Assembly: GCA_009761415.1 (NCBI GenBank)
Contig: QUOL01000004.1
Span: forward strand, 2,108,001-2,172,000
Length of the DNA: 64,000 nt
Source of the DNA: Sarcomyxa edulis
Taxonomy: Eukaryota > Basidiomycota > Agaricomycetes > Agaricales > Mycenaceae
Reading direction: 5' to 3'
Part shown: piece after piece, positions 34,284-61,839 of the stretch
How positions within the stretch are numbered: the stretch's first letter is position 1
How the letters are laid out: every line of letters begins with the position of its first letter
Notes under the pieces: generated by a model
Databases searched by the model: none
What the model was told of the DNA's origin: nothing
What the model saw: the letters and a program-made list of their open reading frames with translations, nothing else
Translations under genes and position numbers: made by a program

Positions 34284-34718
34284 TAGTCCTGTGTGTAGTT
34301 TCGATGGTAGAGACGTATCTTGTGTCGGACGCCAGTCAGCAGAAAGCAATCAGAGGTCAGAACCGGATCCAACCATCCATGTCCAGCAGAATTAACCCGT
34401 TCGTTCTATCATCCAGGTGAGGTACGATCTCATGTCAAAAACTTTCTTCGCGACCCGAAGCACTACTCCATTCCATTCAAATTCCGGCGTCTTATCCGTG
34501 AGGTGCAGGAGTTCCTACCCGAGGCTGCAGAGCTTAGTCGCGCGTTAGCCCTTCACTGTTTGGAAACAAGGCCCGGGAATCTGATTTGTCTATATCATTT
34601 CGAGAAAGACAAGAACGGAAGGATCTACGATGGCGCCGTGGATGGGAAGTACAAGGTTACCGGTACCCCACATCCACGGAATGTACGAGGCCCTGATGAC
34701 GCAGAAGTACCCGTACGC

Positions 34719-36701
34719 TGTGATGAGGACTGCGGCGCTAGGTGCGAAATAGTTTCTGCAACCTAACAGTAGTTCGTCCACTAAGGGTTTAGGTGACGTT
34801 TGTTTGAGGGGATTTGTACTTGACGGTAATACCTAAATGCTCGAGGTTTTTATAAGTAGATATAATGGAGAGGTCTAAATGACCTCTGTGAGAATTATAA
34901 TGCGACGAGAGGAAGCCCTCTCGAATTTAGAGGTAAAGGAACTGGGAGTGAACGACTTAGCCGATCGGTTTACGGTCGCAGCAATAGTTTGTTCGGATTT
35001 GGGAGATTTCAGAAAGGCGATCGGTCGAAGCAATTCGTTAGAAGGTGAGAAGCGAGCTACTTCTCCTTGTATAGAGTGGGTTTGTTGATTATTTCGTTCG
35101 TACAGAGATGGGGGGGGGGTCTACCCGTAGCTACCGTAATGTATTTTACAAGTCCGGTATAAGTATTCCTCGCCTCTTGCGATTAGGGGTTCGCCTTTCC
35201 ACCCCTCGAGGCCTATTTCCGATAAAGAACGATGCAAGCAGCATGAACCGGATATTGGTTCCACCGGGGGGATGTCCGTTAAAATTGGTAGAGCGTATTT
35301 CGAATGCAGACTTTTCGTTTCCGATCGGTTGTGTCGAAGGGCAACCCCTTATTGTCGCTATGTCGGTCTTTGGCGAATTTCCTACCGAATCGGCCGCTTT
35401 ACTGGATCGGTCGATCGGCCAATTCTTGGAATCGGTCGGCTACGAGCCATAATCCTTGGGTAGAGACGACAATCGGCCGTTCCTGGAACAGCATGTCGCG
35501 TTGAATAGTGTTACACATATGCTTCATCTTGTCTTGATAGATCCATAATTTAGAATCGCTTGGTGAATGGGTCAACCGATCGGCCAGTGCAAAGGATTGG
35601 TCAGTCGCGCGCTCGAAATCTTAAGCCGGGATAAACTGGTCGGCTGTTTAATTGGATCGGCCAATCGGCCATGGTATCATCTGCATGGATAAGTTCCGTA
35701 ACTTGAAATTGCCGAGTGACTAGGTCGGCCGATCGGTCAGCACATAGGATCGGTCAGTCGCGGGTTCGAATCATTGGATGGAAACGACGATCGGCTACTC
35801 CTGGGACAGCATGTCGCGTCGAATGGCATTACACATGCGTGTCATCTGCACGGATAAGATCCGTAACTTGAAATCGCTGGATGACTAGGTCGGCCGATCG
35901 GTCAGTGCATAGGATCGGTCAGTCGCACGTTCGAGTCCTTATACCAAGATAAGTGTCGGCCGATCGGATGGTGCATATTATCGGTCGGTTGCGCGTTCGA
36001 ATCCTTAGACCAAGATAAGTGTCGGCCGATCGGTTGGTGCATATTATCGGTCGGTTGCGCGTTCGAATCCTTAGACCAAGATAAGTGTCGGCCGACTTTG
36101 TAACCGAACCTTCTACAGAAAGCGATCGCGTTTGGCCTCCTACTAAGTCGATCGGCAACGTTCCAATTCGAATTCGTAGGATAGGGCTTGGTCTTACATT
36201 GTCGGCAGCGATAGCCAGGTCTCGGATCCTTTCGGCGACCGATCGGCTGATAGATAGGGAAGTTCGTCAATTGTGTATCAGGAGTGATAGGGTAGGCCAC
36301 CAGGTACGTGTGGGCGCAAGGTACAAGGAGTGATAGGAGCGTGTGTGTGGATTGGGCGATCGGTATTTCCAGAGGAAAATGCGTTTTGGCAGGGAGTTCA
36401 TGGGTAACTGTATGACGGACGGGATCTTTTTAGGAGTCGTGGAGTCGTCTATTGGAAACTTCAGTCGTGATTTCTTCTAGACTGTCGTTAATTTTTCTGG
36501 TAACTGGTTGAACTCTTCATCTGTGGGAATACAGGGGTAATGGCTGAGGAAAGTCGTCAAAGCGTGAACGCAGTACTGAGCGGGTAGGTGAGGGATGGTC
36601 TTTCGGGGAGAAACCTAGATCGGCATGGGGTTAATGTCTTCGTACTCATGAAATGGATAGGAACTAGGATGTCGCAGGCTAGGGATGTTCACATCCTCAC
36701 A
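34719..36701 (-). repeat. left LTR (3' LTR) of the giant element
   Basis: 1983 bp, identical to the right LTR in every stretch I compared, including a run of ten G near 35110 and four translated frames. It ends TG...CA with imperfect 10 bp inverted termini (TGTGATGAGG / CATCCTCACA). The open frames inside it are present in both copies only because the LTR is duplicated. Confidence 0.93.
35703..36105 (+). repeat. 66 bp subrepeats inside the LTR
   Basis: Near-perfect 66 bp units (CAAGAT marks at 35945, 36011 and 36077) plus two more diverged copies upstream. Each contains a GTCGGCCGATCGG palindrome and a tRNA T-loop-like GTTCGAATCC or close variant. The same block is in the right LTR at 60261-60663. 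Confidence 0.85.
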
Positions 36702-36721
36702 CTCCATCCTAACTTTTGAAC
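36702..36721 (-). other. polypurine tract of the giant element
   Basis: Read on the minus strand, the bases directly before the left LTR are AGGATGGAG preceded by GTT, a short purine run ending at the LTR edge. This is the expected position of the plus-strand primer. It is weak (9 nt). Confidence 0.5.
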
Positions 36722-36855
36722 ATCGACCGTCCTCGGTCGATCAACCAGATCAGGGAACCCGTAGGCAGAGGACCAGAGGGCAATCGCCGGGGTCCCGAGG
36801 GTCCTGTGGTACGCATAAAAGCGGCAGGCCGATCACGAAGTAGACGCCGCTCATC

Positions 36856-37668
36856 ATGGATTCCGTCGCTATAGAGCTTTTTGCTGACCTCTCACTCGAC
36901 CTGGAGGGTATCGACCCCGAAATATCGAAAAATACTTTCCGTCGGTATCTACGCGTTAATCTCCGGTCCATGGTCAACATCGTCTTCTGTACACTGTTCC
37001 AGGACAGGATCGGCAACGAACTTCATGAAGAATTTACGCCGCGTGGGGTAGAAGTTATTCGTAAGCACGTTCGGATTATATGCGATCACCTAGTGAGCAC
37101 AGTCGGTCGAACACCAGGACCCGAAGCTAACCCTGCACTGTAGTCATTTATCCTCCGCCTGCGTTGGACCATTGAAAATCGGTATCGCGATAACAAGGAG
37201 CCGATCCCCACAGAAGCAACAGCGCTCGTCGTCCTGACTCGCCGATTTGTGTATGTCATTGGTTTCACACACGATACCCTAGTGGAAGAGGCTAGTAGGA
37301 TATACAGTGATCTGCAGTTCCTAGAGCTGTATGCGCGTCGATCTCGGTCGGGAGTAAACTTGGACTACATGGAGGCCGATCCATCGAACATGTTATGTGC
37401 GGCCATCGAGGAGTTTCAACCAAGACTATACGGCGATCGCATTAGCCTTACTGGCGAAATTCTACACACCAATCTGCAGGTCGCGCGTCGCACTCTACCT
37501 TTCCCGGGCCGACGGGAAGAAGAGGGAACCGTCGCCACTGACAGCGATACAGAAATGGGCGAAGAGATTCGCGAAGGGGAAGGGGCAGTTGACAGGCCAT
37601 CTCTGAATCGGGAGACAGACATAGAGACAGCTCGTGAGTGGAACGCTCACCGCCGGTCCGCGGTTTAA
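36856..37668 (+). CDS. accessory gene 1 (LRP-motif family)
   Basis: Two exons (36856-37092, 37144-37668), 253 aa, antisense to gag-pol. The intron is GTGAGC...CTAAC...TGTAG. Exon 1 has an acidic N-terminus, then TFRRYLRVNLRSMVNIVFC, the position where sister genes read F-x3-LRP. Exon 2 has the second family signature, PIPTEATALVVLTRR. The tail is longer and more acidic than in the sisters (TDSDTEMGEEIREGEG). CATAAAAG lies at 36818-36825, 30 bp before the ATG. No known domain was recognised. Confidence 0.65.
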
Positions 37669-37949
37669 ATGACTAATGTTTCTCAAGGGATTGCCCAACT
37701 AATCGCAAGTGCCGAAGACGGAATGCCGCGACTAGTGGTCGCACGGAACGGCTGAAAAAGGGGGTACTGCAATCGGTCCTTCGGGGAGAGGGTTTCTTGG
37801 AAGGGAGAGGTAGCCGATCGGGGGCACAAAAAAAACTATTCCATGGAAAAAGCCGGATTTCCAATCCGTAGTTGGTATAAAGGTCGTCCAGGAATGGCTT
37901 GATATCTAGAATACAGCGCCTTCCCGTGCCGTGAAAAATCCCCGTTAGA

Positions 37950-38499
37950 ATGAATCCCGATCACTCTCTCCTAACGGAGTTCTTCTCTTTGTACGTTCGT
38001 ATCGACCAATCGGCCAGCGTCGCAGCACGCGAAACCATTCCTGAATTCTTCGAGCACCGCCTTCGACCAATGTTCAGTATTATAGAGAGAATCCTACCGC
38101 ACCCGGTGATGTTCTTGCCGACCACGTTGTTCAACCCGATCGCGGAGTATAGCGTTCCACGCCATCTCATGGCGTTCTTCTTATCCAACATCGTGCGTCG
38201 AAAAGTCCTTTTCAAACGTTCTGCAGGGGAGCTAACCGCTGGTAAAGGCCATGATAATCGATCACAGAGAAAACACAGTATCCGATACAGGAACCGTCGA
38301 TCGGCAAATTCCCGCCGAGGCGACAATCATGCTCGAACGAGCCCTGATTGTCATAGACAGAGTCGGCTTCTATGAAGACTGGAAAGACGACGCGAACAAC
38401 TTCTACGTAGCCCTCTTGGGGAAGCTGAAAGCTGAAGCAGAGGAACTGGGCAGGACACTGATCGGCCATGGCCAATATCCTGATTTTGATCAAGGCTGA
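37950..38499 (+). CDS. accessory gene 2 (LRP-motif family)
   Basis: Two exons (37950-38192, 38248-38499), 164 aa. Exon 1 contains EFFEHRLRPMFSIIERIL, the clearest form of the family motif, and ends FFLSNI. The intron has GTGCGT...GGTAAAG ends and a GCTAACC branch. Exon 2 has QIPAEATIMLERALIVIDRV, then an amphipathic helix (LLGKLKAEAEELGRTL). TATAAAG lies at 37876-37882, 67 bp before the start. The protein looks all-helical. No function is recognised. It is antisense to the retrotransposon transcript. Confidence 0.65.
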
Positions 38500-38849
38500 A
38501 ATTCTACCAATACCGGAACCGGCAAGCGATCACTTTTCTCCTGTGACCCTTTGACTAAACGTTGCAAAAAAAAAACAGAGACGATCGGCCGCACAGTCGA
38601 GGAGAGAGAGCCCAGGCAGGAGAGGCAGACGATTAGATGAACGATGTCGATCCAACGGCAGATGACGGGGTCTCGTAGATACCTCTCAGTTGGAATAATC
38701 GTGGAATAATTACCTGAGCCAGTCCAGGACACGCGACGCGATCGAGCGGCAGTGGCGTCCACAAAGCCCCACAGGTCCAAACATGCGGCGGTGCTTCAAA
38801 AATTTTCCTATATCTCCTATAGACACGTCGATCTCCTGTATCCTTCGTA

Positions 38850-39535
38850 ATGGCGTCGTCAAAGCAGTGGAACTTTGAAGGTAACCAGAAGATACAGCAA
38901 TTTGTCCAAGTTGCCCTACCCGATCGGCAAAACCTTGGATCAGAAAACGAGCTTAGAAACTTCCTTGCGGAGCACGTCCGCCCTTTGTTAGCCTATATCG
39001 CTGCCGTCGTGCCCCTGCCCTTGCCCGAGACGAGAAGCGATCTCTACAAGATGAAGGAGAACCAAGGCGTCCACAATGCCCGGTGGATGGTTAAGCAAAT
39101 AACTGAAATCCTGGTGCGTCGAGCAATCAGGACAAGGAAGCCGAGCGCGACTTTTGACCTTTCTGGCTTCAGGCGGCAGTCCAAGAGATCAGACGTCACA
39201 AACGCAGCGACGGCCAGCCTATACCGACCCTTCCCGTCGAGGCTCAGTATATGTTGAGGGCAATCCTCGGCCTTATTCAAGCGATCGGCCTCAACGGTGA
39301 ACCTTGCATTCCCATTAGGACACCTATCGCCTATCAAATAGTCAGAGACATGTTGGACGAGGTCGAGGTTAGAAAGATAGCCGAGCAGACGCTTGCAGAT
39401 TTCAAGGGGTACGACAAGGGAGGCTGGCCACTAGATAATGCAATACATGGCGTACCGATCGCCGCGTTCCAAACTGAAGGTGCGGCCGATCCATGCTTTC
39501 GCGTGCCGATTGAGATTGACAAGTTGCAACTATAA
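38850..39535 (+). CDS. accessory gene 3 (LRP-motif family)
   Basis: Two exons (38850-39113, 39173-39535), 208 aa. Family motif 1 is FLAEHVRPLLAYIAAVVPLP; exon 1 ends KQITEIL. The intron is GTGCGT...TGGCTTCAG. Exon 2 begins AAVQEIRRHKRSDG and carries motif 2 as PTLPVEAQYMLRAILGLIQ. TATATCTCC lies at about 38809. The stop codon (TAA, 39533-39535) is embedded in the TATAAAAG box of gene 4. No catalytic residues are apparent. Confidence 0.65.
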
Positions 39536-39536
39536 A
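39529..39536 (+). promoter_or_regulatory. TATA box of accessory gene 4, overlapping the stop codon of gene 3
   Basis: TATAAAAG at 39529-39536, 52 bp before ATG 39589. Its TAA is the stop codon of the upstream gene. A similar overlap occurs at 41141-41148 (AATAAATA), where the stop of gene 5 lies inside the AT-rich box upstream of gene 6. Confidence 0.6.
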
Positions 39537-39588
39537 AGGACCTGTAGTTGGATCGCCAGAATAACGTACTCTTCAGCATTGTTCAGGA

Positions 39589-40123
39589 ATGGCGTCCAAT
39601 AATGCGACAGAATTTGCCCTGTTAACCTTGCCATCGTCCTCCTTCATCCCGACGTTCGTACCGATTGAGGGATTTCACGGATTCCTTCATTATCGGCTCC
39701 GCCCGATGCTTTACCTGATAGAGCGCGAATACAACACCGCCAGTATCAACCTTCATGCAGATGCTATGGTCGCGCAAGCCGCACTATCTGTCGCTCGTAC
39801 ACATTTCATCAGATTCCTCGCGCACTTGGTAGGTCAGTGTCGATCCATCGTTCGAGAAGATCGCTCATGCACAACAGGCCCTCATCCTAGATTACCGATC
39901 GCGCACAGTTGCTAGCGGACTCCGCAACACCGTGCGCATCCCAACCGAAGCGCATAACATGGGGTCACGCGCACATCTCTTGTTAATTGCCCAGGCAGAT
40001 TCCCTCGGCCTATCTTCGATCGTTATTACAACTTTTCGGAATATGACAGCGAGCTTTGCATTTTACACGCGGCATGTCGTTGCCAGGGGAAACGGACAAG
40101 TCGATTATCCCGGATACCAGTAG
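39589..40123 (+). CDS. accessory gene 4 (LRP-motif family)
   Basis: Two exons (39589-39828, 39878-40123), 161 aa. Motif 1 is GFLHYRLRPMLYLIEREY; exon 1 ends FIRFLAHL. The intron has GTAGGT...CAACAG ends. Exon 2 reads ALILDYRSRTVASGLRNTVR, then motif 2 (RIPTEAHNMGSRAHLLLIA). A short, possibly decayed frame at 40161-40427 follows before gene 5 and may be a remnant of another copy. Function is unknown. Confidence 0.62.
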
Positions 40124-40408
40124 AAGAGAAAGCCAAAAGAGCGTGGAGATAACGCATTAGGTGACGAAACGAGGGCGATGTCCTAGCTGGAGCAGCGATC
40201 GGCATATCATGCGGTACAATGTCGGCGAGGGGCGAGCAGAGTCGATAGCCTCGCTCTACGATATACTTGAAAATAAAAACGATTTCACAGCCGATCGGCT
40301 CGAATCTTTTTTCACAGCATCGGCCGATCTTGTCCATTCGAGGCGTTCGGCGTCGAGTATAAGAGCAATATCATCGCGACCGACTGCTGTCAATATCGCA
40401 GACCATAC

Positions 40409-41146
40409 ATGGACCCCCTTAGTATAGCCATACTCGACGTTCTCGTCAAGGACGCCAGCTTCCATTGGATCAGTAACGATGAGAGTGCCGATCGCTTTCT
40501 TCGTCGGTACCTTCGTCCCATTATCGGCCTTGTCGCATCCAAAATCTTTCCCGTACTCGACCCAAGTGGCGAGTTCCCGTCCCTCTCTGAGGTCGATCGC
40601 ACGTCCTTTGCCAGCTCCATTCGATCGGTCATGAAACTGTTGGTGCGTATGTCGATCGGCCCTCGATCGGCCCTTTTCTGACCTAGACAAGTTTTTTAGA
40701 TTGTATTCTGGAACGCGCGCAACCGTGTCTCAGATGCCGATTTAAACAAGAACCGGGTACCATCCGAGTCCGGTCAGATGCTAAGCGATCTACGCCTTAT
40801 ATGGAGGGCAGCCGATCGCTCCGAATTCGTTTTTGAGGGCAGCGATACATGGAGGGAGAGATCGGTAGAGATCCTTGTTGAGCTTAGCCGATTGGCTGCT
40901 CTCAACTACAGCCAAGCCACAGACCCTTTCGACTGGCCTCAATACGGCTTCGCTCGCGAGGCATCGCCAGACTACGATGTAGCGGCCGATCGGTTCGGTG
41001 CCTGGGGAACCGATGGAGGATACGAAATGAATGGTGACGAGGGGAACGGCTGGGGCGATCAATCGGATTCTTACGAGATGTGGCCGGCCCCGAACGGAGT
41101 ATCGTCCGAGGACGACCCAGGCGTGAGCGACGCTGAATTCGAATAA
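40409..41146 (+). CDS. accessory gene 5 (LRP-motif family)
   Basis: Two exons (40409-40642, 40700-41146), 226 aa. Motif 1 is RFLRRYLRPIIGLVASKIF; exon 1 ends SVMKLL. The intron is GTGCGT...TTTTTTAG. Exon 2 opens IVFWNARNRVSD and has motif 2 as RVPSESGQMLSDLRLIW. The C-terminal ~60 residues are acidic and Gly/Trp/Tyr-rich (NGDEGNGWGDQSDSYEMW), unlike the other copies. TATAAGAG lies at 40359-40366, 43 bp before the start. Confidence 0.65.
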
Positions 41147-41191
41147 ATAGAGAGTGTAACCCGGTCTTGATTCAAAAATCCCTGTACCGCG

Positions 41192-42144
41192 ATGTCATTT
41201 TTACTTCGCTTATCGGCGAACAAATTCGCAGAGGACCCAAGTGACACCAGGGGCGCTCCTCCACAAGACATGGCCACCCTTTGGTCCGCCTCGATTCGGC
41301 ACCTTCTAGGCATTGTTCATTTATCGACCGTCGACCGCGCGACCAGCGCGATTGCCATTGAAGAACGCCTTTGGATAAGAACCGTTATCGCCAAAGTGAT
41401 TAATTATGTTGTAAGCCGATCCAGTATCCAGGCGCTTCCCTTGTTGATACTGAGGAGCGACAATGCTCAGCATCAAGCTATGAAGTTACGAATCGCTCAA
41501 GCGATCCAGGCGGGGGACTGGCGGACAGTCGACGTTCCTGCCGAGGCGACGCTCTCGGTAGCCATGCTCGAATACTTTATTCGGGAGTTCGGCTTCGAAG
41601 GTGATTATGTAGGGGTCAATGTCAGAAATGTCGGCTTTCTGTTAAACGGGTTGAAGTGCGATCTTATAGCCCAGGTATGCCCAAAGCTGTCTATGACCAA
41701 TCGGCCTTACTGATCTCTGCCTATTTCAAGCCCGGATACGCATCGTCCGCCATCGACTTCCAGGGTTATAGTTTTTCGGATACTTTCGCACGGTATGGTG
41801 CCGATGAGGGAATGAAGGAAAGACAGATCAATGACTTGCTTAAGTCGAAGGCGATCGGTCAAGTCGATCCTGGAACGATTGATCCCGGAATGCCCTTTCT
41901 CCCATACGTGCGCCAGTTCCCCACAAAGGATGGACACGAAGAGGTACTGTTACACGGGGCGGTTCCCGCACCTGTTCGCAATTCGAGCGGCACCAACAAT
42001 ACGTTCGGTCGGCCATTGATACCTGATGCCAGAGGGCCAGGTCTCGCCGGTCCGTCAGGCAGTCGGGAAAGGTTGCCGCGCCGTGGTCCTAGGGAAAACC
42101 CTCATTGCCGATCCGCTCCTAGTCGCCAGGCCAGCCGATTCTAA
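41192..42144 (+). CDS. accessory gene 6 (LRP-motif family, three exons)
   Basis: Exons 41192-41410, 41471-41674 and 41731-42144 join in phase to 278 aa. Motif 1 is degenerate (LWSASIRHLLGIVHLS). Exon 2 has motif 2 as DVPAEATLSVAMLEYFIREF. An additional third exon adds a Pro/Gly/Arg-rich tail (GPGLAGPSGSRERLPRRG). The first intron position matches the sister genes. The extra exon suggests this copy has gained a terminal domain. Function is unknown. Confidence 0.6.
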
Positions 42145-42913
42145 AGTTAACAAAAAAGTCAGTTCATAATTTGCCCGTCTTCGGCACATAATCTAATAAA
42201 AGTTCTGCATAGTTAGTAGCTTGTGCCACAAATGTGTATTTTGCCTCGAGCGGCGTTCTTTTCGTCTATAATGCATAATTTGGCACATTGCGTTGTCCCA
42301 TTCCGCTGGCCAGCCGAATCGGGGTCGCCTAGTGTCGTTCATAATTGATTTCATTCAGAAATCCAGTCGGCATAAATTTTATAAGGATCGTCATCCTTCA
42401 TAGGCGCTGGTTTGTCGACCCTTGCGCTCTCCTAATCGTGTTTCGCTAGCGTCGCAGCGCTTTGACTTCCTTCTGTTTGACTTCCTTGGTTCACGTCCGA
42501 TTGATATTCGGTTGTGAACAGTGTTCGTGTGATTAGGCCGATCGCTAGTGGGTTTTTCAAAAAACTGGATCGGCTCCCCCGTTTTCGTTCGTTTCTTGTC
42601 CTTTCCATGTCGAATTTATGTAATCCATATTATTCCCGTATTATCGCCGATTTTTACCGTTTTTATATAATAGACTCTCCGGCGCGGTCCATGGGAGCAT
42701 CGAACTTAAGGATTATCGACCTGCTGCTGGCTAAAGCGGTTGTTTGGCTGAAGCTTCAGCTTGTTTGGCGGAGTCGCGAGTCGCGATCGCATTTCGGCCA
42801 TATCCGGGCTGAGTTTCAAAAGACTTCGAGCAATTTCTCGACGCGTATTTTTAAGCGCTCGCTCGGTCCTTCCTTTCCTCTTCTCCTCCATCATCCTTCC
42901 TTACTCGACTTCC
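42145..42913. other. region between accessory gene 6 and the Zn-cluster gene
   Basis: About 770 bp, AT-richer than its neighbours. It presumably holds the promoter of the Zn-cluster gene. A frame at 42514-42942 is open but looks non-coding. Scattered GATCGG motifs continue here. Confidence 0.4.
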
Positions 42914-45503
42914 ATGGCACGTACAAAGACGAATCCCGATGACGAGAATCGTCGCGGATCACAGCCAACCGCGTCGTCCTCTGCCATCCGCGGCGTTCCT
43001 CGGCGGATTAGTCCTGCCAGGATGCAGGCAGCCGCTCCTCGCAACCCCTTCCTCGCCATAAAGTCCGAGCCGTTTGCTCGCAGCCAACCTTCGACATCCA
43101 CCCCTCGTACTCATTTCGCGGCAAACGCGTCTTTGACGTCGCCGATCGCTTCTCATACATCAACGTCTCGTCTCAGTGGCCCTGGGGAAGGCGTTCCCCC
43201 CATCCTGCTGACCCAATCTACGTCACGTCGTTCTCGTTCCGTCCTTCCTCAGCGACACGATTTCTATCCCAGACTCGCCGGGAGCTCTTTTAACATCAAC
43301 GCTCACTCGCCCGTTGCCCGTAAACCAGTTCCCACTCTCATCAACGAGATTAAGGACTGGGCCGAGGCGGTGTACGGAGACGACGACAATTTTCCCGACT
43401 GGGTCGACGACCTCCCCCAGATAACGCCTGAAGCCCTCGAATTCATAAGGTCGTCGAAGTGGACTCCAAAATGGGCTTTCGATTGCCTCTGGTATCACTG
43501 TCCAGACACTCCTCCGCCTCAGGTCAGCAGCTTTGGGTTGCCAAGCCCCGTTCCTCCTTCACCGACGAGCGGACGGTTCGACGTCGAGCCGGGCGCAGAA
43601 GGCTTTGAGGGCGAGGGATCGAGAGGGGACTTCGATCGTACGATCGAGAGCGACATTTTGGGGATGAAGATCGTCGAGGATGGAACAGTCGCTCGTCCAG
43701 AGAACTCGGCAGGCAACGTTCTGAATGAGTCGGAGAACTTGGGTCGCGAGGAGACAGACGCCGCTGCCATCAGTAAGTCCTACCCAAGCAAACGTCCTCC
43801 TCTTTCTAAACTTCATTCAAAACCTTTACTTGTCTTCTAGGAAACCGACGACTCGACGAGCTCGAAAAGGAACAGGCAGAAGCCCGAAGGGCGGACGTCG
43901 TACCAGAGAAAGGGGCGAATTCGGGAACGGGGGATTCATCGCAGGGAGAGGTGGAAAATATGATGATTGGTGAGTGACCCTCCCCTTGTTACCCATCATT
44001 CTTACTGCTTCATTCCTGATTATGAAGATCCTCCTCCGGAGTCGCCTCCAGCAGAGGCGCGGATGGAAGTCGACCTCCCCCCCCCGATCGCTCGCCCTCC
44101 TTCACCCGCCCTCGAACTCATCGTCCCTAACCTATCCCTTCCTCCCCCGACTTTGTCCGATTCCTATGCGCCTGACGGTCCCGATCGTCAAGACGTTATC
44201 GATCCTCCTCGCTCGCGCCCTCCTTCTCCCATGGCCGAGAACGATGATCGTGATCGCACACCAACGTCTCCTCGCATAGCTCCTCCACCGCCGCCAAAAC
44301 CGAAGAAGGCCGTCCCTCAAAAGTCCGCTTCGTCGAAAGGAAAGCGGAAGGCACCGACTCCAATTCCTCTGTCCGACACTCCAACGCCGCGCGATTCCCC
44401 CGCGCCAGCAGCGTCTACGTCGACATCGTCAAAGCGAAAAGGAAAGAAACGCGCTAAGACCGACGAAACCGACTCCGAGATCGAATTCACCGGTATCGTT
44501 CCCTTCGAACCCAAGATCAAGGTCGATCCGAAAGTCATCGCGACTTCTTCCACCAGAGAGTCCGATGCTCCGGCAAAGAAGAGAGCTCGAAAGGGAAAAG
44601 GTCCAGCCGACCCCAAGGAGGCACAGAAACCCCCTCCTAAGACCGTGCCGGCGACTACGCGTGTTCGACGTCAACGCGCTTTGGCTGTAGGCGAAGTTTT
44701 CCGACTCGAGGTGAGTAGTTTCCTTTCTCCTTGTAATATTACCGCCCTCCAGCGGTTTCCTTTTATTGACTTTGTTCATTTGTTTATAGCATCTGATGTG
44801 TCGCCCTTGCCGGATCGCGCTCGATGTACAGCCATGCGTCGGTCTCCCCGGCCGACGTTGCCGAAAGTGCATCCGCGACAAGCACAAGTGCTCGATCAAG
44901 TTTAACGAGTTCACCAGCGCGGACAAGGCAAAGTACATCGCAGACGGCCTCTTGAAGTTGGTCACCGAGCCCGGCATTCCTCCTCCTGGTGAATCGTTCA
45001 GTCGGAACATAGTCCCTTCGCACCAACAGCAGAAAGCCGACGAGGACCAGGAAATGGAGGATGACGACGAAGGTCCGTATTCCCGTACGCGTCTGCGTAC
45101 GGGAGTTAGTATTAAAATTCCTGACCGACGTCTAAACATCCCTCCCCCGCTCTCTCCAGACTTCGACACCGCTTCTCAGGTTGCTGCCAATGACGCCGAG
45201 GAGGCCGCCGCTAACGATGCGGCCAAAAAACACCTCCGAGCCCTGTGGTCTGCTTCTAGCAAGAGGTTCGAGCGGGATTTCTCGTCATTCGTCGCTGGCC
45301 AGATCGCCAAGATAACCGAGGACGCAATGAACTTGCACTTCGGCGCCGTAGAATCGGCTTTCAACGAAGGGCTTTCGTACTCGTTCGGTGGGCCTCCCGC
45401 GCCTCTTCCTGGGCAGGACGACGTCGGAGAAGGGTCGAGCAGGTTAGATGGGGTGGTGATCGTTAAGAAGAAGGAGAAGAAGGATTCAAGGCAAGCTAAG
45501 TAG
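42914..45503 (+). CDS. Zn2Cys6-like nuclear protein carried antisense by the giant element
   Basis: Four exons (42914-43772, 43841-43969, 44028-44710, 44790-45503) join in frame to 794 aa. The N-terminus (MARTKTNPDDENRRGSQP) is low complexity. A compact block KDWAEAVYGDDDNFPDWVDD leads to a helix WTPKWAFDCLWYHC. The centre is Pro/Ser-rich with several basic nuclear-type signals (KRKGKKRAK, KKRARKGKG). Near residue 560 is a cysteine cluster C-x2-C-x8-C-x7-C-x2-C-x6-C (CRPC, then GRRCRKCIRDKHKC). This resembles the fungal Zn2Cys6 DNA-binding domain except that spacing 2 is 8, not 6. A helical region (SKRFERDFSSFVAGQIAKI) and a lysine-rich end follow. Such domains normally bind CGG triplets. A regulator of the element is inferred, not shown. 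Confidence 0.7.
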
Positions 45504-45661
45504 TTTGTATAATCACTTCTTTTAAAATTTCCCTTCTTCCTTTTCTTTCATGTAATTCCCCCTCCTCGCGCGTCCTTTGTTCGGTCGGGCTCTCGCGTCT
45601 GCGGACATTTTTCCTCGGGTTTCGGCCCATATCACATTTTTTTTACGGATCGTAGCTTGTC

Positions 45662-45688
45662 GTCGGTACCACGTTAGGTGGTGCCGAC
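45662..45688 (+). other. 11 bp-stem hairpin downstream of the Zn-cluster gene
   Basis: GTCGGTACCAC and GTGGTGCCGAC around a 5 nt loop; ten of eleven positions pair and the remaining one is a G-T wobble. It lies about 160 bp after the stop codon, inside the likely 3' UTR. Confidence 0.55.
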
Positions 45689-45689
45689 T

Positions 45690-46422
45690 CGTATATCTGT
45701 ACGGTTATCTGTAAATACAGAAAACCGATTCTTCACGAGTCAATGGGTCCCGTTCTTAAGTCGCCGCAAGATCGGCCATAAACAATTGGTTATATGTCCA
45801 ACACATAGGTTTCCTGTCAAAAATCCCCAAGTCGATCGGTCGGCCTTAATACCGGAAAGTGCACGATTTCGAACAACTTCGATCGGCTTTTGTCCAGAAA
45901 TTTCGTCAAAGTCCTCATGAACAGCAGCGATCGGCATTTTGTTGTAGTCGCCCACAATCGGCTTTTTTCTACGTTCCATCACCCGGCCACCGATCGTTGA
46001 ACACTGCGATCCTCTCTGATTCCCTTTGTATAGACAATTGGCTTTTGTGCCAGGAACTCGTCTAGGTCCGGTGAGAGTACGACTTGGGATACAATCGGTC
46101 AAAACGATCAGTCTACCGATTGTCCTCTTGCTTTGTTTCTTCGGCCGATCGTTTGAACACTGCGACTCTCTTGGATTGCGTTCGTGTCGTCGATCGGCTT
46201 TCGGTGCAGCAATTTGTCTAAGTCCTCTTAGAGCAGCAGTAATCGGCAATTTCTCGCAGTCGGCCACGATCGGCCTTTTTCTATCTTTCCTTTAATCGGC
46301 TACCGATTGTTGAACATAACTACCTGCTCGGACTGTATTTGTATCGTCGATCGGCTTTTGTTCCAAGAATTCGTCCTTTCGCGTCCTTTTGAGCTATAGT
46401 CGGTTATTTCTCAGGATCGGCC
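45690..46422 (+). repeat. degenerate GATCGGC-rich repeats, continued at 52574-52975
   Basis: Two to three imperfect ~300 bp copies share CGATCGGCTTT(T/C)G...CCAG, TCGTC(T/A)A(A/G)GTCC, ACCGAT(C/T)GTTGAACA and CTTGCTTTGTTTCTTC. The stretch right of the nested element (52574-52700) repeats GTACGACTTGGGAT(G/A)CAAT and CTCTTGCTTTGTTTCTTC. The nested element therefore landed inside this repeat block. No gene is visible. Confidence 0.7.
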
Positions 46423-46854
46423 TGTCAGGGCAACACCAATCTATACAAGACCAGCGGGCCACTGAAGCGTCACGAGCGAAAGGCGAGAACAGAGAAAGAG
46501 GAGGAGAGGAGATACAAAGGGAAAGAGAGAGGAGAGAGGAGCGATAGAAGATGCTACAGGAGTTATATGACTTAGGTTCCCACTAGATTAGCGGTAATCC
46601 TGAGAGATCGAACTGAGGATCCCCAGGGTGCATAGCGCCCTTTATATATCTACCTACATTACATGATTGGTAAGCTATAGAATCCTATGGAACATAATGG
46701 AACACCGTTAGTAAGATGATGATGCAACTCCGCAGCACCTTAGTAATCGCATCAGTCAGCAGCAGGAATAAAGGTATCCCAAGGAATAACTATAGCCCCC
46801 TGATAAGATAAGATAAGATCAAAGATAAAGTCCAAAATGAGTCGTTTCCTGACA
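46423..46854 (-). repeat. 3' LTR of the nested chromovirus
   Basis: 432 bp. On the minus strand it contains TATATAAA (about 46645-46652). About 30 bp downstream is AGTTCGATCT (46605-46614), the presumed transcript start. Confidence 0.93.
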
Positions 46855-46865
46855 TCACCCCCCTT

Positions 46866-49800
46866 CTAGGTCGAATCGTCCTCGATATGACTACGATTAA
46901 GTGGTATCGACCAAGTCGGGATGTGTTTTGTCCTTTCCTTCTCCAAGACTGAGATTGTGGCATCAGTGTAGGTTTCGAGAGGTCTAAACGGCAGTTGAGT
47001 GAAGAGTGCAGCGTTAATCCGTCGCGGTGCATTGGGGTGCAACTGATGGAACTGTCGAACCAGTCTTTTTGCACGATCAACGTTATCCTCCGGTTCCCAG
47101 GTGTTGTGTTCGTCGGTGTACCCCTTCCACTTGATCAAATAGTACAGCTTGCCTCGTTCCAATTTAGAGTTCAAGATTTCTTCAACTTCGTATCGGGGTT
47201 CACCTTCGACCTGGATTGGAGGGGGAGGATCGGATCTTTGGCCTTCGATCTGGGGTGGAACGTAGCGTCGCAGTTTGGAGACATTGAATACGGGGTGTAG
47301 CTTGTTGTAACGCTTTGGCAACTTGAGTTTATACGTGTTGGGCGACACAACTTTAGTGATTTCGAATGGTCCGTCCCGCTTGTGACTTAGCTTTTTGGAG
47401 GGGCGGTCTGTCTTGATGTCGCTCAAGTCAAGGTACACCTTGTCTCCAACCTTGTACTGTGGGGTTTCGATCCGACCTTGATCTGCAAATCTCTTCATCT
47501 CATCTGCCGCCTTATTTAGAGCCGCCTCTACTTCCTCATGGACCTTTTTCATGCGTAGTGCAAAGTCCTCAGCAGCTTCTGACTTGACATTTCTTTTCGG
47601 CTCGACCCCCATCCTTGGATGTCTTCCAGTATTGGCGTAGAAGGGGGAGACTTGAGTCGACGACGAAACTCGGTTGTTAAGCGCAAACTCGGCGATGGCT
47701 AGCCAATCAGCCCAATCATTTTGCCTATGATTGATGAACAAGCGAAGATATTGTTCAATTTCCTGGTTGGTTCTTTCCGTTTGTCCATCACTTTGAGGGT
47801 GGTAGGCTGTCGACAGTTTGCGTTTGACACCGAGTAGCGTGTGAAGGTCTTTCATGAGCTGCGAGGCAAATTGCGGTCCGCGGTCCGAGATGACTGAGTC
47901 CGGGAGACCGTGGTACCTCCAGACGTGATCTCTGTAAAGCGCGGCTAGTCCAAGGGACGACAATTCTTCGGAGCATGGGATGATGTGGGTCATTTTGGTG
48001 AATCTGTCAACGACCACGAGAATTGCATCGTTCCCTTGGCTATCTGGCAGTCCAGTGATCAAATCTACGGAGATATCTGTCCACGGCGCCGAAGGGGTGC
48101 GGTTAGGCATGAGCTTTCCTATTGGTGGGGCAGGGAATGTCTTTGTTCGATTACATTTGTCGCAACCTTCGATGTACTGGGTTACGAATTTAGTCATTCC
48201 TGGCCACCAGTAGTTCCTGCTCATAAGCTCTAGGGTCTTCCACTTTCCAGGGTGTCCCACGACTGCAGAATCGTGATGTAATTCCACAATCTTTCGCCGT
48301 AGTTCTTCCTTCTTAGGGACGTAGACTTTTCCCCGGAATAGTATCAACCCTTGCTCTTCTGACCACTCTTCTTCTCTGAGACGTCTGACAGGGGAATGTT
48401 TGAGTTCTTCAACAGCTTTGACCACCGACTCATCATAGTCTTTGCACTTTCTGATGTCTGATAAAATGCTAGACTCGTTGTTTTCGATCAAAACGTGGCC
48501 CTGTTGAAGCGCTCGGATTCGGAAAAACTCTGGTTTAAGAAGGATTTGGTTCTGGTTATCCTCTTCCCCCTTGTCATGATCTGCTCGTCTCGAGAGATAA
48601 TCTGGTTTGGCCGATGCAGACCCTGGTCGGTGTTTCAGCACGAAATCAAATCGCGATAGGTAAAGTGCCCATCTCGCTTGTCGTCGATTCAAGTTCCGTG
48701 CTGTTTTGAAGTATTCCAGGTTCTTATGGTCGCTCCAGATTACCACCGGGTGGTCAGCCCCTTCGAGGTAGTGTCGCCATTCTTCCAAACATCGAATGAT
48801 GGCTAGCATTTCTTTATCGTGTATATCATAGTTGCGTTGCACATCATTCAATCCTTTGGAGAGATAGGCGCACGGTCTCCATTTACCATCATCACAGAGC
48901 ATGCTTAGAATACCCCCAGTCGCATGACCTGAGGAGTCGGCCTCAATCTTCATCTGCTTTGTCGGGTCAGGATATACGAGGACAGGCTCGGAGGAGAATC
49001 TTCTCTTTAACTCGTCGAATGCCTTTTGTTGTTCCTCCGTCCATTTCCATGGTGCATCCTTCCGAGTGAGCTGATGAAGGGGTTTTGCCACTTTAGAGAA
49101 TCCCTCTATGAAGCGCTGGTAGAAGTTAGCAAAGCCGAGAAAGGCTTGCAGCTCCTTGACTTTTGTTGGTACCGGCCACTTCATGACTGCTTCGACTTTC
49201 TTGGGATCCATTCTAATGTGGTCACCCGAGATGATGAGACCGAGGTATTCCAGCTCTGTTTTCTCAAACTCGCATTTTTCGGGTTTAAGGAATAGATCAT
49301 TGTCTCGTAGGATTTCAAGAACTTGTTTGACTATTTTCCTGTGTTCTTCCAGTGTCTTGGTGAAGATCAGGATGTCGTCCATGTAAACAATGACTACTCC
49401 TTTATCGATCAGCGGTTTGAGAATGTGGTTCATCATGGTCTGGAAGGAAGCCGGCGAATTCATCAGTCCAAAGAACATAACGGTTGGTTCGAACATCCCT
49501 CTGTTGGTTTTGAAGGCTGCTTTCCACTCATCCCCTTCCTTGATGCGCAAATTGTTGTATCCCCACCGTAGGTCTAATTTGGTGAAGATCTTTGCGTTTT
49601 TAAGTTTATCGACAAGTTCGGGGATTAGGGGTAGTGGGTAAGCGTTCTTGACTGTGTGGGAGTTCAGATGCCGATAGTCTTGAACCGGGCGGTTCGTACC
49701 GTCTTTCTTCTTCACGAAGAAGAAGGGAGCCGCTTGGGGAGACTTCGAGGGTCGGATATATCCTTTGCGTAGGTTCTCGTCGATGAATTCGTCGAGTTCC

Positions 49801-50597
49801 TTTTGTTCTTTTGGTGACAGAGGGTACAGTTTAGGGTTTTGAGGGATAAAGGTGTCTTTCAGATCTATGGGATGGTCCCAAGGTCGTCGTTCAGGGAGTC
49901 GTTCCGACGCCTTCTTTTCGAACAGTTCTAAGAATTCATGATACTGTTCGGGGACTATGGTTTCGGGTTTAGGTTTAGATTGAAAGACCCCTGCGTCACC
50001 AGCAAAGAATATCCGTTCCGTTGGAATTTCTTCATACTCGTCGTCTTCTTTATGAGCCCAAGGATCATACCACGTGTGGTAGATGGCTTCTTCGTCTTCA
50101 CCTTCTTCATCTTCGTTGACCATGGTGGGGAATGGGGTCTTAGCTTTGGCTTTTGCCTTGCGGCGTACCTTAGCGTCGTACCCACATTCTTTTGGACACC
50201 TAGTCATCTCCACTTCTCCCTTTTCCCAGTCTATTTCCGGGTTGTGCTTCTTCAACCAGGAGTGTCCGATAATAACTGCCATCTTTCCAAGGTTGGTGAT
50301 CGCAAAAGTAGCACGTTCCTTATGCCCCTTATAGTTCAGGATCATGTCTACTTCTTCTGTGATCGACCCTCCTTCGTTCAGGGTTCCATCTACATTGTAT
50401 ACTTGAATGGGTCTTTTCAGTCGTCGGGTTGCTAGCCCATTGCCTTTTGCAAATTCTTTATCCATAAACAATGTAGTGGCCCCTGAATCCAGCAACGCAT
50501 CAATGTTGATCGCACGATGAGTGTCAAGAGTTCTAAGACCAACGTTCATAGAAACGTGTGTCTTAAGGTTGAGGGTTCTGACATAATGTTTTTCCAC
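46866..50597 (-). CDS. pol: chromovirus Pol (protease, RT, RNase H, integrase, chromodomain)
   Basis: 1243 codons are open from 50597, where the first codon is GTG; the frame continues upstream without a stop into the end of gag, in the -1 frame. Order: aspartic protease (LLDSGAT, residues 36-42), reverse transcriptase with YMDD at 405-408, RNase H (IEADSSGHATGG, about 545), integrase zinc finger (HHDS...GHPGK...CDKC, about 760-800), integrase core (SVDLITGLP, SDRGPQFAS, TERTNQEIEQ) and a C-terminal chromodomain (LYYLIKWKGYTDEHNTWEPE, about 1145). All catalytic signatures are present, so the copy may be active. Chromodomains of this class direct integration to particular chromatin. Translation probably needs a -1 frameshift from gag. 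I found no classical heptamer. Confidence 0.93.
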   Translation of the reverse strand: MEKHYVRTLNLKTHVSMNVGLRTLDTHRAINIDALLDSGATTLFMDKEFAKGNGLATRRLKRPIQVYNVDGTLNEGGSITEEVDMILNYKGHKERATFAITNLGKMAVIIGHSWLKKHNPEIDWEKGEVEMTRCPKECGYDAKVRRKAKAKAKTPFPTMVNEDEEGEDEEAIYHTWYDPWAHKEDDEYEEIPTERIFFAGDAGVFQSKPKPETIVPEQYHEFLELFEKKASERLPERRPWDHPIDLKDTFIPQNPKLYPLSPKEQKELDEFIDENLRKGYIRPSKSPQAAPFFFVKKKDGTNRPVQDYRHLNSHTVKNAYPLPLIPELVDKLKNAKIFTKLDLRWGYNNLRIKEGDEWKAAFKTNRGMFEPTVMFFGLMNSPASFQTMMNHILKPLIDKGVVIVYMDDILIFTKTLEEHRKIVKQVLEILRDNDLFLKPEKCEFEKTELEYLGLIISGDHIRMDPKKVEAVMKWPVPTKVKELQAFLGFANFYQRFIEGFSKVAKPLHQLTRKDAPWKWTEEQQKAFDELKRRFSSEPVLVYPDPTKQMKIEADSSGHATGGILSMLCDDGKWRPCAYLSKGLNDVQRNYDIHDKEMLAIIRCLEEWRHYLEGADHPVVIWSDHKNLEYFKTARNLNRRQARWALYLSRFDFVLKHRPGSASAKPDYLSRRADHDKGEEDNQNQILLKPEFFRIRALQQGHVLIENNESSILSDIRKCKDYDESVVKAVEELKHSPVRRLREEEWSEEQGLILFRGKVYVPKKEELRRKIVELHHDSAVVGHPGKWKTLELMSRNYWWPGMTKFVTQYIEGCDKCNRTKTFPAPPIGKLMPNRTPSAPWTDISVDLITGLPDSQGNDAILVVVDRFTKMTHIIPCSEELSSLGLAALYRDHVWRYHGLPDSVISDRGPQFASQLMKDLHTLLGVKRKLSTAYHPQSDGQTERTNQEIEQYLRLFINHRQNDWADWLAIAEFALNNRVSSSTQVSPFYANTGRHPRMGVEPKRNVKSEAAEDFALRMKKVHEEVEAALNKAADEMKRFADQGRIETPQYKVGDKVYLDLSDIKTDRPSKKLSHKRDGPFEITKVVSPNTYKLKLPKRYNKLHPVFNVSKLRRYVPPQIEGQRSDPPPPIQVEGEPRYEVEEILNSKLERGKLYYLIKWKGYTDEHNTWEPEDNVDRAKRLVRQFHQLHPNAPRRINAALFTQLPFRPLETYTDATISVLEKERTKHIPTWSIPLNRSHIEDDST

Positions 50598-50707
50598 AGG
50601 GGGTTTCGATTCGTGAGCGGGGGAAACAACTTTATTTTCTTCAAAATGTACATGTTTTTCTATTCTAGAATCGGAACCCTTGGTAGCGGCAATCGAGTTT
50701 GTGGAAG

Positions 50708-51697
50708 TTACTGATTGCCGTTTTGAAAACCCTCTTCCTTTCGGAAGTACTCTCTCAACTCGTCAAACGTCATGCTTCTGATGTCGGCATAGGTACAGTT
50801 ACGAGCGATGTGTCCTAGCCGTTGGCAACGGAAGCATTTGATAGGTGGACGTTTGCCGGCGCGATCCACATCCATGGCGTCTGGGTCCCTTTGCCTTGGC
50901 GCATCGGGCTGACGTTGAGGTGGTACAACTGGGGCTGGAGGCGGAGCTACTGGTTTGTCTCGACGAGGTTGTGTCCTGGATGTGTCGTTCCAGACGTTCT
51001 TGGCTTTCTCGTTGTAGCGAATGCGTTGATTGTCCAGCTTTAGCACCCATTCGTACCAGCCAGCCAGGGTGTTTGGCATAGCAGGTAATGCGTAGACGCG
51101 TTCTCGAAGCCGATGGTTTAGACCCGTTTCGAACTTTTCAATCAACGCTACCTCATTGTACCCAGTACGTGGGGCGATCGATGCAAAAGCCCGGACGTAC
51201 TCGTCGGCGGTCTGGCTGCCCTGGAACAACTTGCTCATGTCAGTCTGAGCCGTATCTTGGGGATTGGGATCGGCAAAAGACTTTCTGAACTTTTGGATAA
51301 AGTCATTCCAGCTGGTGAAGGGAGCCTGTCGCCGGAGAGAGGTCATAGGATCTATTGTTCCAACCTGACTGATAGCCGTTAACGCCAAATCCACAAAGGT
51401 TTGTGCGGTTCCCCCCTGGATGTATGAGAGCGCAAACGAGATTTTGGTATCATCGTTTGGGAACTCAATGGCTCGACCGTTCATATAGTTGATGTTTTCG
51501 TTGATGAACGCGTCAGCCTGGGCTTTGTCTCCAGAGAAAATACGAGGGGGATTGATTTTAGGAAGTCGGGGATGAGGGGCAGGAAGTGGTTGCGGCATGG
51601 GTTGTGGCTGGGGTTGGGCAAGCTGTTGGTTCAGCAGGTTGGTGAGGGCGGCGATTTGGGTTTCGAGTTGCGTAATGCGATCATCAGGGTCCTCCAT
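50708..51697 (-). CDS. gag: chromovirus Gag
   Basis: 329 aa from ATG 51697. A short coiled coil at the start (DRITQLETQIAALTNLLNQQ) is followed by a Pro/Gln linker, a capsid-like helical domain (ISFALSYIQGGTAQTFVDLA, FRKSFADPNPQDTAQTDMS), a Pro/Arg-rich linker, and one CCHC zinc knuckle (CFRCQRLGHIARNC) near residue 290. It ends at 50708, about 110 nt before the first start-like codon of the pol frame, but that frame overlaps the gag end. Confidence 0.93.
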   Translation of the reverse strand: MEDPDDRITQLETQIAALTNLLNQQLAQPQPQPMPQPLPAPHPRLPKINPPRIFSGDKAQADAFINENINYMNGRAIEFPNDDTKISFALSYIQGGTAQTFVDLALTAISQVGTIDPMTSLRRQAPFTSWNDFIQKFRKSFADPNPQDTAQTDMSKLFQGSQTADEYVRAFASIAPRTGYNEVALIEKFETGLNHRLRERVYALPAMPNTLAGWYEWVLKLDNQRIRYNEKAKNVWNDTSRTQPRRDKPVAPPPAPVVPPQRQPDAPRQRDPDAMDVDRAGKRPPIKCFRCQRLGHIARNCTYADIRSMTFDELREYFRKEEGFQNGNQ

Positions 51698-52129
51698 GGT
51701 AGTGGCAAGAGGAGATGCGAGGTGGGAAGGAGTTATGGAAAGGTGGGGAGGTTACTACAGACACGATCGAATGCGTGATACTAAACAGGTCCCCGTTGGT
51801 TAGACGGATCAACCCAACCGGATAGTATGCACGAGCGAAAACAATATGAGTGTAGTGCGGTATGCGTAAGGCGAGGTGCCGTTAGCTTGTGTTCTGTTGC
51901 TACTCAGACAATATCCTTCTTCTCTTCCAAAAGGACTATTGCGCGGTTAAGCCTTGGCGACTACTGCAGATCTGAAGTCGGGCTCAACGTTACTTCAGAT
52001 TATGCTTGTCAGCTGAGTTGAGTGGAACACAAGTTCTTGATGGCGAGGTAAAAGGTAGTTAGTAATGTGAATGGAAAGAGGGAATGGAGGGGCGCAGCGT
52101 GTATTTCAGGATTAGGGCGTCGTAGGGTG

Positions 52130-52139
52130 AGTTCGATCT
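52130..52139 (-). other. self-priming primer-binding site of the chromovirus
   Basis: On the minus strand AGATCGAACT begins 2 nt after the 5' LTR. It is the exact reverse complement of AGTTCGATCT in the LTR (minus strand, 52333-52324), which lies about 30 bp below the TATATAAA box, where transcription should start. No TGG-type tRNA site is present. This is the arrangement known from Tf1/sushi self-primed elements. Confidence 0.7.
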
Positions 52140-52141
52140 TC

Positions 52142-52573
52142 TGTCAGGGCAACACCAATCTATACAAGACCAGCGGGCCACTGAAGCGTCACGAGCGAAA
52201 GGCGAGAACAGAGAAAGAGGAGGAGAGGAGATACAAAGGGAAAGAGAGAGGAGAGAGGAGCGATAGAAGATGCTACAGGAGTTATATGACTTAGGTTCCC
52301 ACTAGATTAGCGGTAATCCTGAGAGATCGAACTGAGGATCCCCAGGGTGCATAGCGCCCTTTATATATCTACCTACATTACATGATTGGTAAGCTATAGA
52401 ATCCTATGGAACATAATGGAACACCGTTAGTAAGATGATGATGCAACTCCGCAGCACCTTAGTAATCGCATCAATCAGCAGCAGGAATAAAGGTATCCCA
52501 AGGAATAACTATAGCCCCCTGATAAGATAAGATAAGATCAAAGATAAAGTCCAAAATGAGTCGTTTCCTGACA
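52142..52573 (-). repeat. 5' LTR of the nested chromovirus
   Basis: 432 bp with the same ends and box elements as the 3' LTR; one base differs. Confidence 0.93.
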
Positions 52574-61259: not shown

Positions 61260-61839
61260 ACGCGTGAAAGGATATCTTCATTGTGGGTGCCCCGAGGATG
61301 AGGTTCTAATGTCGTTCTTGTGGTGGAAGACGCTGGTGGCAGAATCACCGATCACCAAGGTCCAGGAGGGATTCCGTGACCAGCACATGGATCCACGGAC
61401 TTGTACGTTTATGTATGACATGTGGTGTCAGACCACCTTGCAAACTGTGGACAGGATGTATAGGGATGGAGCTTCGGGTCCGCTGACCAGGATCCGTATC
61501 TTGAGGGACCGTCTGGAAGGAGTTCGAGAGGCTCTTGCCATCGAAAAAGAAGAGCAGGCGGCTTTGAGAAAAGAACTTCGTCAGTAGTGAATTGTTGATA
61601 CAAAATGTATCCTTAAACCATATAGCATCTGCCATTTATCGAATTTATGATTGGTGTGCGAAAAATGGTGCACAAAAATAATACAAATAAGAATATACGA
61701 ATATAGAGTTGAAGTTGAACAGTCTGACGAGTAGCAATTAGAGACACGACGTTCAGCCGGTGGGTATACGAGGATGTGTATGGTATTTCTATGCAAGATG
61801 CGTGAGATAAGAAGGTTGAGGTAGTTGGCTCGAGACAGG

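Follow-up and report, generated by a model that had tools for sequence, protein, structure and literature searches.

Resident antisense genes with predicted introns between pol and the 3' LTR of a gypsy-like retrotransposon of Sarcomyxa edulis

The window analysed here, a stretch of 64,000 nucleotides from contig QUOL01000004.1 of the fungus Sarcomyxa edulis, contains a gypsy-like long terminal repeat (LTR) retrotransposon, E1 (34719-61259), whose gag-pol lies on the minus strand. Between E1 pol and the 3' LTR, a block of 9.7 kb carries on the plus strand six paralogous genes, g1 to g6, and a Cys-rich gene, g7. An earlier note, made from the letters of this DNA, had proposed an LTR retrotransposon with intron-containing genes on its antisense strand. 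The seven genes and 11 introns that we modelled bear this out, and the span that the note gave, 36856..45503, is correct: it runs on the plus strand from the start of g1 to the end of g7.

E1 measures about 20.4 kb without a nested insertion, E2, which is described below. Comparison of the window with itself revealed two direct repeats of 1983 bp that are 100% identical, the 3' LTR (34719..36701, minus strand) and the 5' LTR (59277..61259, minus strand). Both start with TGTG and end with CACA, and they are flanked by a 4-bp target-site duplication, ACGC, at 34715..34718 on the left and 61260..61263 on the right. The gag-protease open reading frame (ORF; 56692..59247, minus strand, 851 aa) matches the Pfam families gag-asp_proteas and Asp_protease_2, and the pol ORF (52976..56794, minus strand, 1272 aa) matches the RNase H and integrase zinc domains. 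RVT_1 and rve gave no match for E1 pol in Pfam at E<=5, and its FVDD and integrase-like stretches were spotted by eye only. Two LTRs, the 4-bp duplication, the protease, the RNase H and the integrase zinc domain place E1 among the Ty3/gypsy-like elements. With these domain matches and a reverse transcriptase that escapes RVT_1, E1 pol appears to represent a divergent gypsy lineage. A TGG-starting stretch 2 bp past the 5' LTR is a candidate tRNA primer binding site, and AGGATGGAG, which precedes the 3' LTR, is a candidate polypurine tract.

The genes g1 to g6 encode proteins of 161-278 aa. All of them have two exons except g6, which has three: g1 (36856..37668, 253 aa; exons 36856-37092 and 37144-37668), g2 (37950..38499, 164 aa; 37950-38192 and 38248-38499), g3 (38850..39535, 208 aa; 38850-39113 and 39173-39535), g4 (39589..40123, 161 aa; 39589-39828 and 39878-40123), g5 (40409..41146, 226 aa; 40409-40642 and 40700-41146) and g6 (41192..42144, 278 aa; 41192-41410, 41471-41674 and 41731-42144). 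The acceptor of g2, AAG, was picked by homology to the paralogs. The last gene, g7 (42914..45503, 765 aa), is modelled with five exons (42914-43772, 43841-43969, 44028-44710, 44790-45072 and 45160-45503) and has its Cys cluster at 44799-44891. The 11 modelled GT-AG introns are 49-87 nt long. Downstream of g7, a noncoding stretch (45504..46421) contains repeats with GATCGG-type motifs. When g1-g6 were aligned with the genes of the sister family F2, described below, a common LRPM-like helical stretch was followed by the intron and then by a P-x-E-like stretch; the profile of the g1-g5 group, A2, which leaves g6 out, has three invariant columns. As judged from these alignments, g1-g6 form one duplicated family.

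Note that the gag-pol nearest to the antisense block (46866-51697) is not that of its parent. It belongs to E2, a chromodomain gypsy element (chromovirus) at 46423..52573 on the minus strand, which has 433-bp LTRs that are 99.8% identical, gag at 50708-51697 and pol at 46866-50597, both on the minus strand. E2 sits inside E1, between E1 pol and g7, and is younger than E1. Since another copy of E1, C12, is uninterrupted at the E2 site, and since the window has a 5-bp duplication, CGGCC, around E2, E2 is the later arrival and the block is part of E1. The nearest gag-pol was thus rejected as the parent in favour of the pol at 52976-56794.

According to the earlier note, other copies of the element lacking the block would have pointed to a one-off capture. 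The copies of E1 and F2 analysed here were fetched from the contigs of a 35.6-Mb assembly in 40 contigs. Since the genome searches score only part of their candidates (36/168 in the pol search), the lists of copies and matches are lower bounds; one E1 search, with 10/15 candidates scored, did not have the C12 copy among its matches. Full-length matches to the E1 LTR (query 1-1983) number at least 13 with 40/96 candidates scored, both LTRs of the window included. Every other fetched E1 copy that extends to this place, five in all, has the block, colinear with that of the window and 96-99% identical to it, which supports the interpretation of the earlier note. C12, a full-length copy, lacks E2, and its block is uninterrupted; in C4 and C2 the block is colinear across insertions, and in C5 and C15 it is colinear up to the contig ends. 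The sixth fetched copy, C36, runs into the contig edge before the block. Among the nine listed E1-type pol matches, g7 lies downstream on the opposite strand at eight, the miss being C36, at a contig end, and g6 does so at seven, C36 and C15 running off their contigs.

Some side observations concern these copies. The same 4-bp site duplication, GCGT in the sense of the element, was found in the window E1 (34715-34718) and in the C4 copy (612743-612746), a coincidence that may hint at a target preference; the C12 copy has no clear site duplication. The g7 of the C15 copy is more diverged from the window, with a synonymous difference of 0.10 vs 0.01 in pol, and that of the C4 copy is 96.3% identical vs 97-99% elsewhere in C4. 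The g7 regions of C15 and C4 look as if they had been exchanged with another subfamily.

F2 is a sister family with a pol about 80% identical to that of E1 and with confirmed LTRs (the 5'-LTR matches begin around position 8001 of stretch L026). At 13 of the 14 listed F2 pol matches g6 lies downstream on the opposite strand, and the exception, C17, lies close to the start of a contig. F2 carries antisense orthologs of g1, g2, g4, g5 and g6 at 31-48% identity: 43% for g1, about 36% for g2 under an earlier intron model, 31% for both g4 and g5, and 47.5% for g6. By tblastx the E1 and F2 blocks are colinear, at 35-59% in pieces of at least 49 residues, and blastn returned short pieces only; the block has therefore diverged more than pol. 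Both E1 and its sister F2 carry the cluster as a regular component. In a third, more distant pol family (about 51%), no recognisable antisense genes were found in the 8 kb downstream of one copy (L029), where only a chance-level g2 match (E=0.04) was obtained.

As the earlier note had reported, the introns have GT-AG ends, and these are kept at all 11 introns in every fetched E1 copy covering them (three others for g1-g5, four for g6 and five for g7). If retained, nine of the 11 would break the frame, by a length that is not a multiple of 3 or by an in-frame stop; g6 intron 1 and g7 intron 4 would not. An unguided pair search found the same intron place in F2 for g4, g5 and g6 intron 1. Inspection by eye showed a donor in F2 g1 at the E1 intron place, and F2 g6 intron 2 lies at the E1 place only with a GC donor allowed; for F2 g2, no clear place emerged. 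The pair search gave no placement in F2 g1 and g2 because an intron there can be read through. In all, the intron places match between E1 and F2 in four genes (g1, g4, g5 and g6). Moreover, at the exact position of the E1 g1 intron, which itself contains an in-frame stop, the ORF of P0002, a g1 ortholog of foreign origin, continues through 20 extra residues, and P0005, which is related to the g7 end, shows no sequence where E1 has g7 intron 4. Most of the antisense genes carry predicted spliceosomal-type introns at places common to E1 and F2. Because these places match, because pN/pS (the ratio of nonsynonymous to synonymous differences per site) is 0.21 in the antisense frames as set against the sense frames (see below), and because of the read-through of P0002 at the g1 intron, the introns stand above chance. 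We consider it likely that g1-g7 are transcribed and spliced as modelled.

The antisense reading frames are under purifying selection. Between the window and the five other E1 copies, the differences per site are 0.0058, 0.0062 and 0.0194 at codon positions 1, 2 and 3, respectively, 0.0165 in introns and 0.0103 in other noncoding DNA. Pooled over these comparisons, all of which use the window copy, pN/pS is 0.21 for g1-g7 (Fisher p ~1e-33 as computed), 0.25 for pol and 0.32 for gag. When the same exons were read in the three sense-strand frames, values of 1.59, 0.45 and 0.89 were obtained. Most of the changes come from g7 (113 of the 148 synonymous and 69 of the 95 nonsynonymous), which alone gives 0.20; taken singly, g1-g6 have few changes, and their pN/pS goes from 0.04 (g6) to 0.61 (g2).

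In all five F2 genes tested, a TATA-like box precedes the start codon by 49-59 nt, and in E1 g1, g2, g4 and g5 (4/7) by 41-74 nt; the whole 9.7-kb strand has 12 TATA-like matches. From these boxes near most starts we infer that g1-g7 would be transcribed from their own promoters. The combinations of intron-like signals also differ by strand: the E1 block has eight on the gene strand and one on the sense strand, with a shuffle mean of 3.9 each, and F2 has nine and one, with shuffle means of 4.1 and 2.5. These few sense-strand signals agree with the argument of the earlier note that antisense introns survive because the genomic RNA presents no splice sites.

Zn2Cys6 proteins have the spacing C-x2-C-x6-C-x5-12-C-x2-C-x6-8-C, and zinc-cluster proteins bind CGG. 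A Cys6 motif is present on the antisense strand of both E1 and F2. The F2 Cys6 gene has the Zn2Cys6 spacing; that of E1 g7, C-x2-C-x8-C-x7-C-x2-C-x6-C, nearly agrees with it, with x8 in the first loop. A third Cys6 motif, with the F2 spacing, was observed at 383-469 (minus strand) of stretch L027, in the DNA that flanks an F2 copy on the side of its 3' LTR, at a distance of about 200 nt; it possibly belongs to a host gene, or a gene of another element, of the same kind.

Each family also has a dispersed CGG-containing motif specific to it. In E1, CGATCGGC occurs 37 times in 18.4 kb (LTR 10, block 21, gag-pol 6) vs once in 50.7 kb of background, and in F2 it occurs once in the block and is absent from the LTR part. 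The F2 motif is TTCGGACA/TCGGACA: 17 TCGGACA were counted in 9.4 kb, 11 of them in the LTR part, compared with 4 in 18.4 kb of E1 and 5 in 50.7 kb of background. The bases next to TCGG differ too: in E1 it tends to be preceded by A and followed by C or T, and in F2 it tends to be followed by ACA. When CGATCGG was compared with dinucleotide shuffles, it exceeded the shuffle maximum in all three parts of E1: 33 in the block (mean 3.92, maximum 8), 14 in gag-pol (mean 2.12, maximum 7) and 21 in the LTR (mean 0.60, maximum 2), where the copies lie partly in tandem repeats and are not independent. In the window outside E1, 2 were observed vs a shuffle mean of 5.67. Within the block, GATCGG has a density of 6.5 per kb in noncoding DNA and 3.9 per kb in exons. 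Some other stretches are likewise enriched in particular 7- or 8-mers, though at lower counts. Taken with the Cys6 motif of both families, the motif arrays suggest an element-encoded DNA-binding factor with its own targets.

The protein searches covered 5.8 billion sequences; for the g1-g5 group, the best 7995 candidates by shared words were scored. One relative was obtained for g6 (P0001, from a metagenome, E=3e-39), three for the g1-g5 group among the candidates scored (P0002-P0004) and two for the g7 end (P0005-P0006), and none of them bears a named function. P0002 is 67% identical over 98% of the query and is present on 36 contigs, and P0003 shows one difference from the read-through ORF of F2 g5 in the 90 residues printed. 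No solved structure matched profile A2 at E<=10. Against viral contigs, the g6 profile, A1, and E1 pol gave 42 and 57 pattern matches, none of which was confirmed. A g7-like fragment, to which P0006 is 63% identical, was also seen at 3849-4878 (minus strand) of stretch L028, with no g1-g6 or pol match in that stretch.

We hold with high confidence that the block is real, resident, selected and antisense, and that it carries spliced gene models. Since it recurs in other E1 copies and in F2, and is under selection, the block is very probably a resident accessory gene cluster of E1 and F2, lying antisense between pol and the 3' LTR, that is, a built-in set and not chance cargo. Several observations weigh against this reading. 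The comparisons of pN/pS share the window copy and are not independent, and g2 reaches only 0.61, on 9 changes. One-base coding indels are present in four of the five copies and none in C4: C12 and C2 have in g7 the same change of homopolymer length, C15 has four in g7 and C5 has one in g6; not all E1 copies are therefore intact. F2 has no clear g3. No TATA-like box lies within 150 nt of the starts of E1 g3, g6 and g7. The shortage of intron signals on the sense strand leans towards the earlier argument on splice sites but stays within the shuffle range. Frame keeping, to which the earlier note had also appealed, is weak by itself, each of g1-g6 allowing 7 to 84 open models, and frame-keeping GT-AG pairs were rejected as the sole proof of introns. 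With HMMER filters that drop most matches above E 0.1, no Pfam family was found for g1-g7 at E<=5 except one weak stray match in g4, and Zn_clus in particular was missing for E1 g7 at this threshold. E1 g7 and the F2 Cys6 gene gave no significant alignment (best E=0.008), and their likeness is therefore at the level of motif and position only. The Cys6 motif outside the F2 copy implies that such motifs are not unique to the block, and the link between motif and g7 is a correlation in which CGG binding comes from general background. Finally, two AlphaFold models were too poor to use (mean pLDDT, the predicted local distance difference test, of 36 and 52).

Could the block have been taken up from the host? 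A recent transduction of host genes by one copy, with no role for the element, would account for the resemblance of the genes to ordinary intron-containing fungal genes, and captured genes are known in LTR elements (PMC7264820). However, the block is found in the five other fetched E1 copies reaching there, downstream of eight of the nine listed E1-type pol matches and in F2, under a selection about as strong as that on pol, and the listed genome matches of g1 and g6 form two classes only, E1-like (about 85-100%) and F2-like (about 37-60%), with no host-like class. A one-off capture was thus rejected: this explanation is largely refuted and we regard it as very improbable, an ancient capture being still compatible as the origin of the genes. 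Slightly less improbable is that the block is a mobile element in its own right, which entered the common ancestor of E1 and F2 and is now only carried along. The block is a self-contained cluster at one place with promoter-like boxes of its own, but no inverted repeat of at least 40 bases was found in 34000-48000 and no transposase-like domain in the Pfam scan, and the g1 and g6 matches again fall only into the E1-like and F2-like classes. Note that the association of block and element was counted from pol matches, not per gene match. Antisense transcripts can regulate retroelements (PMC7264820), and the plus strand could accordingly matter only as antisense RNA, in silencing or regulation, the ORFs being incidental. 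The selection at codon level (pN/pS 0.21) and the keeping of spliced frames over 31-48% protein identity refute this unless the alignments are wrong, and we give it hardly any credence.

If the block is a resident accessory cluster, its introns would persist because reverse transcription acts on genomic RNA, which is complementary to the spliced transcripts and has few splice signals. As to what the cluster does, it may be regulatory: the product of g7 would be a DNA-binding protein of the Cys6 type, specific for the CGG-containing motif dispersed in its own family (CGATCGGC in E1, TTCGGACA in F2), the g1-g6 proteins would be partners of the g7 product, and the set would control how the element is expressed or silenced, in the way known from VANC and the VANDAL elements. 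VANDAL elements are DNA transposons. We put this proposal forward tentatively, at somewhat less than even chances. The wider proposal, of a spliced reverse accessory genome with its own promoters, in which a VANC-like self-recognition or anti-silencing system evolved independently in an LTR element and antisense placement is a general rule, is a doubtful one. On an equal footing with the tentative regulatory role stands a resident set that acts beyond the DNA of the element, in the packaging or export of long RNA, in particle assembly or in counter-defence. Traditional limits near 10 kb are described (PMC6431247), and for a gypsy-type particle 20 kb of RNA is long; a structural or counter-defence role is conceivable for six diverged paralogs; the model of a single g1-type protein is all-helical, at very low confidence; and plant antisense ORFs have been likened to retroviral accessory genes (PMC7264820). 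However, the motif arrays and the Cys6 cluster suggest that at least g7 acts on DNA.

The window contains other features as well. Satellite-like arrays with a period of about 182 bp are present at 21163-23000 and 61807-64000, in opposite orientation and about 70-95% alike, and the E1 5' LTR ends about 550 bp from one of them. An ORF at 24031-25530 (minus strand) has a CxC4 cysteine cluster of the kind associated with KDZ transposases, which would fit a basidiomycete. Another, at 32028-34283 (plus strand, 751 aa), has no Pfam match at E<=0.01; within it, at 32609-33191, lies a repeat of about 96 bp.

Antisense accessory ORFs are already known, and the earlier note was right that some plant and fungal gypsy elements have them: plant elements and the fungal Boty carry them at this place. 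Among the closest systems is Retand, a lineage of Ty3/gypsy elements in plants. In the account available, its stretch from pol to the 3' LTR is long, and every cluster studied has antisense ORFs there; most clusters code for a TRP28 domain, predicted to be DNA-binding, about half have family-specific tandem repeats, and a regulatory role has been suggested (PMC11963269). The Retand region is 2.9-6.6 kb and its ORFs come from an ORF finder, whereas E1 has 9.7 kb, seven genes, 11 introns, a six-member family and a fungal host. The text of that paper has no word beginning with "intron", and "splic-" appears twice (PMC11963269). TRP28 (PF04195) is absent from the Pfam matches of g1-g7 at E<=5, and no Pfam domain is shared with Retand. 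Maize Grande (gene23) and rice RIRE2 also carry antisense ORFs, and that of Grande has its own promoter and a nuclear product; as described, there is a single gene per element, versus seven in E1 (PMC7264820). The same review calls for looking for antisense and spliced transcripts (PMC7264820). In Botrytis cinerea, Boty/BcGypsy1 is, like E1, a fungal LTR element with an extra antisense gene, brtn, but its available description, by which the two are set apart, names one extra gene and mentions no multi-gene spliced cluster (PMC8365987). Burro, Ogre and the Terminons resemble E1 in their large size, due partly to extra coding capacity; unlike the antisense genes of E1, the extra domains of Burro are in a huge polyprotein and in accessory ORFs, and the word "antisense" is absent from the review of these giant retroelements (PMC6431247).

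For the motif arrays, the likeness is with VANC21 of Arabidopsis VANDAL21, an element-encoded protein whose binding site is a short motif that has accumulated in the element itself; related elements have different VANC targets, which are often arranged as tandem repeats (PMC5735166). Binding and methylation loss were shown for VANC by experiment, and VANC21 sits mostly in non-coding parts (PMC5735166), whereas E1 and F2 offer motif enrichment and a Cys6 motif, and the motif of E1 is also in coding sequence. CGG motif arrays beside a Cys6 gene provide a testable hypothesis on the fight between transposon and host over silencing in fungi. Literature searches, which covered titles and the openings of abstracts and left out Repbase reports, returned no multi-gene spliced antisense cluster in an LTR element. 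E1 is a clear natural case for antisense placement letting a retroelement keep intron-containing genes through reverse transcription, and, compared with the systems as described in these sources, E1 and F2 extend the antisense accessory ORFs from mostly single genes, in plants and in one fungal element, to a multi-gene cluster with spliced gene models.

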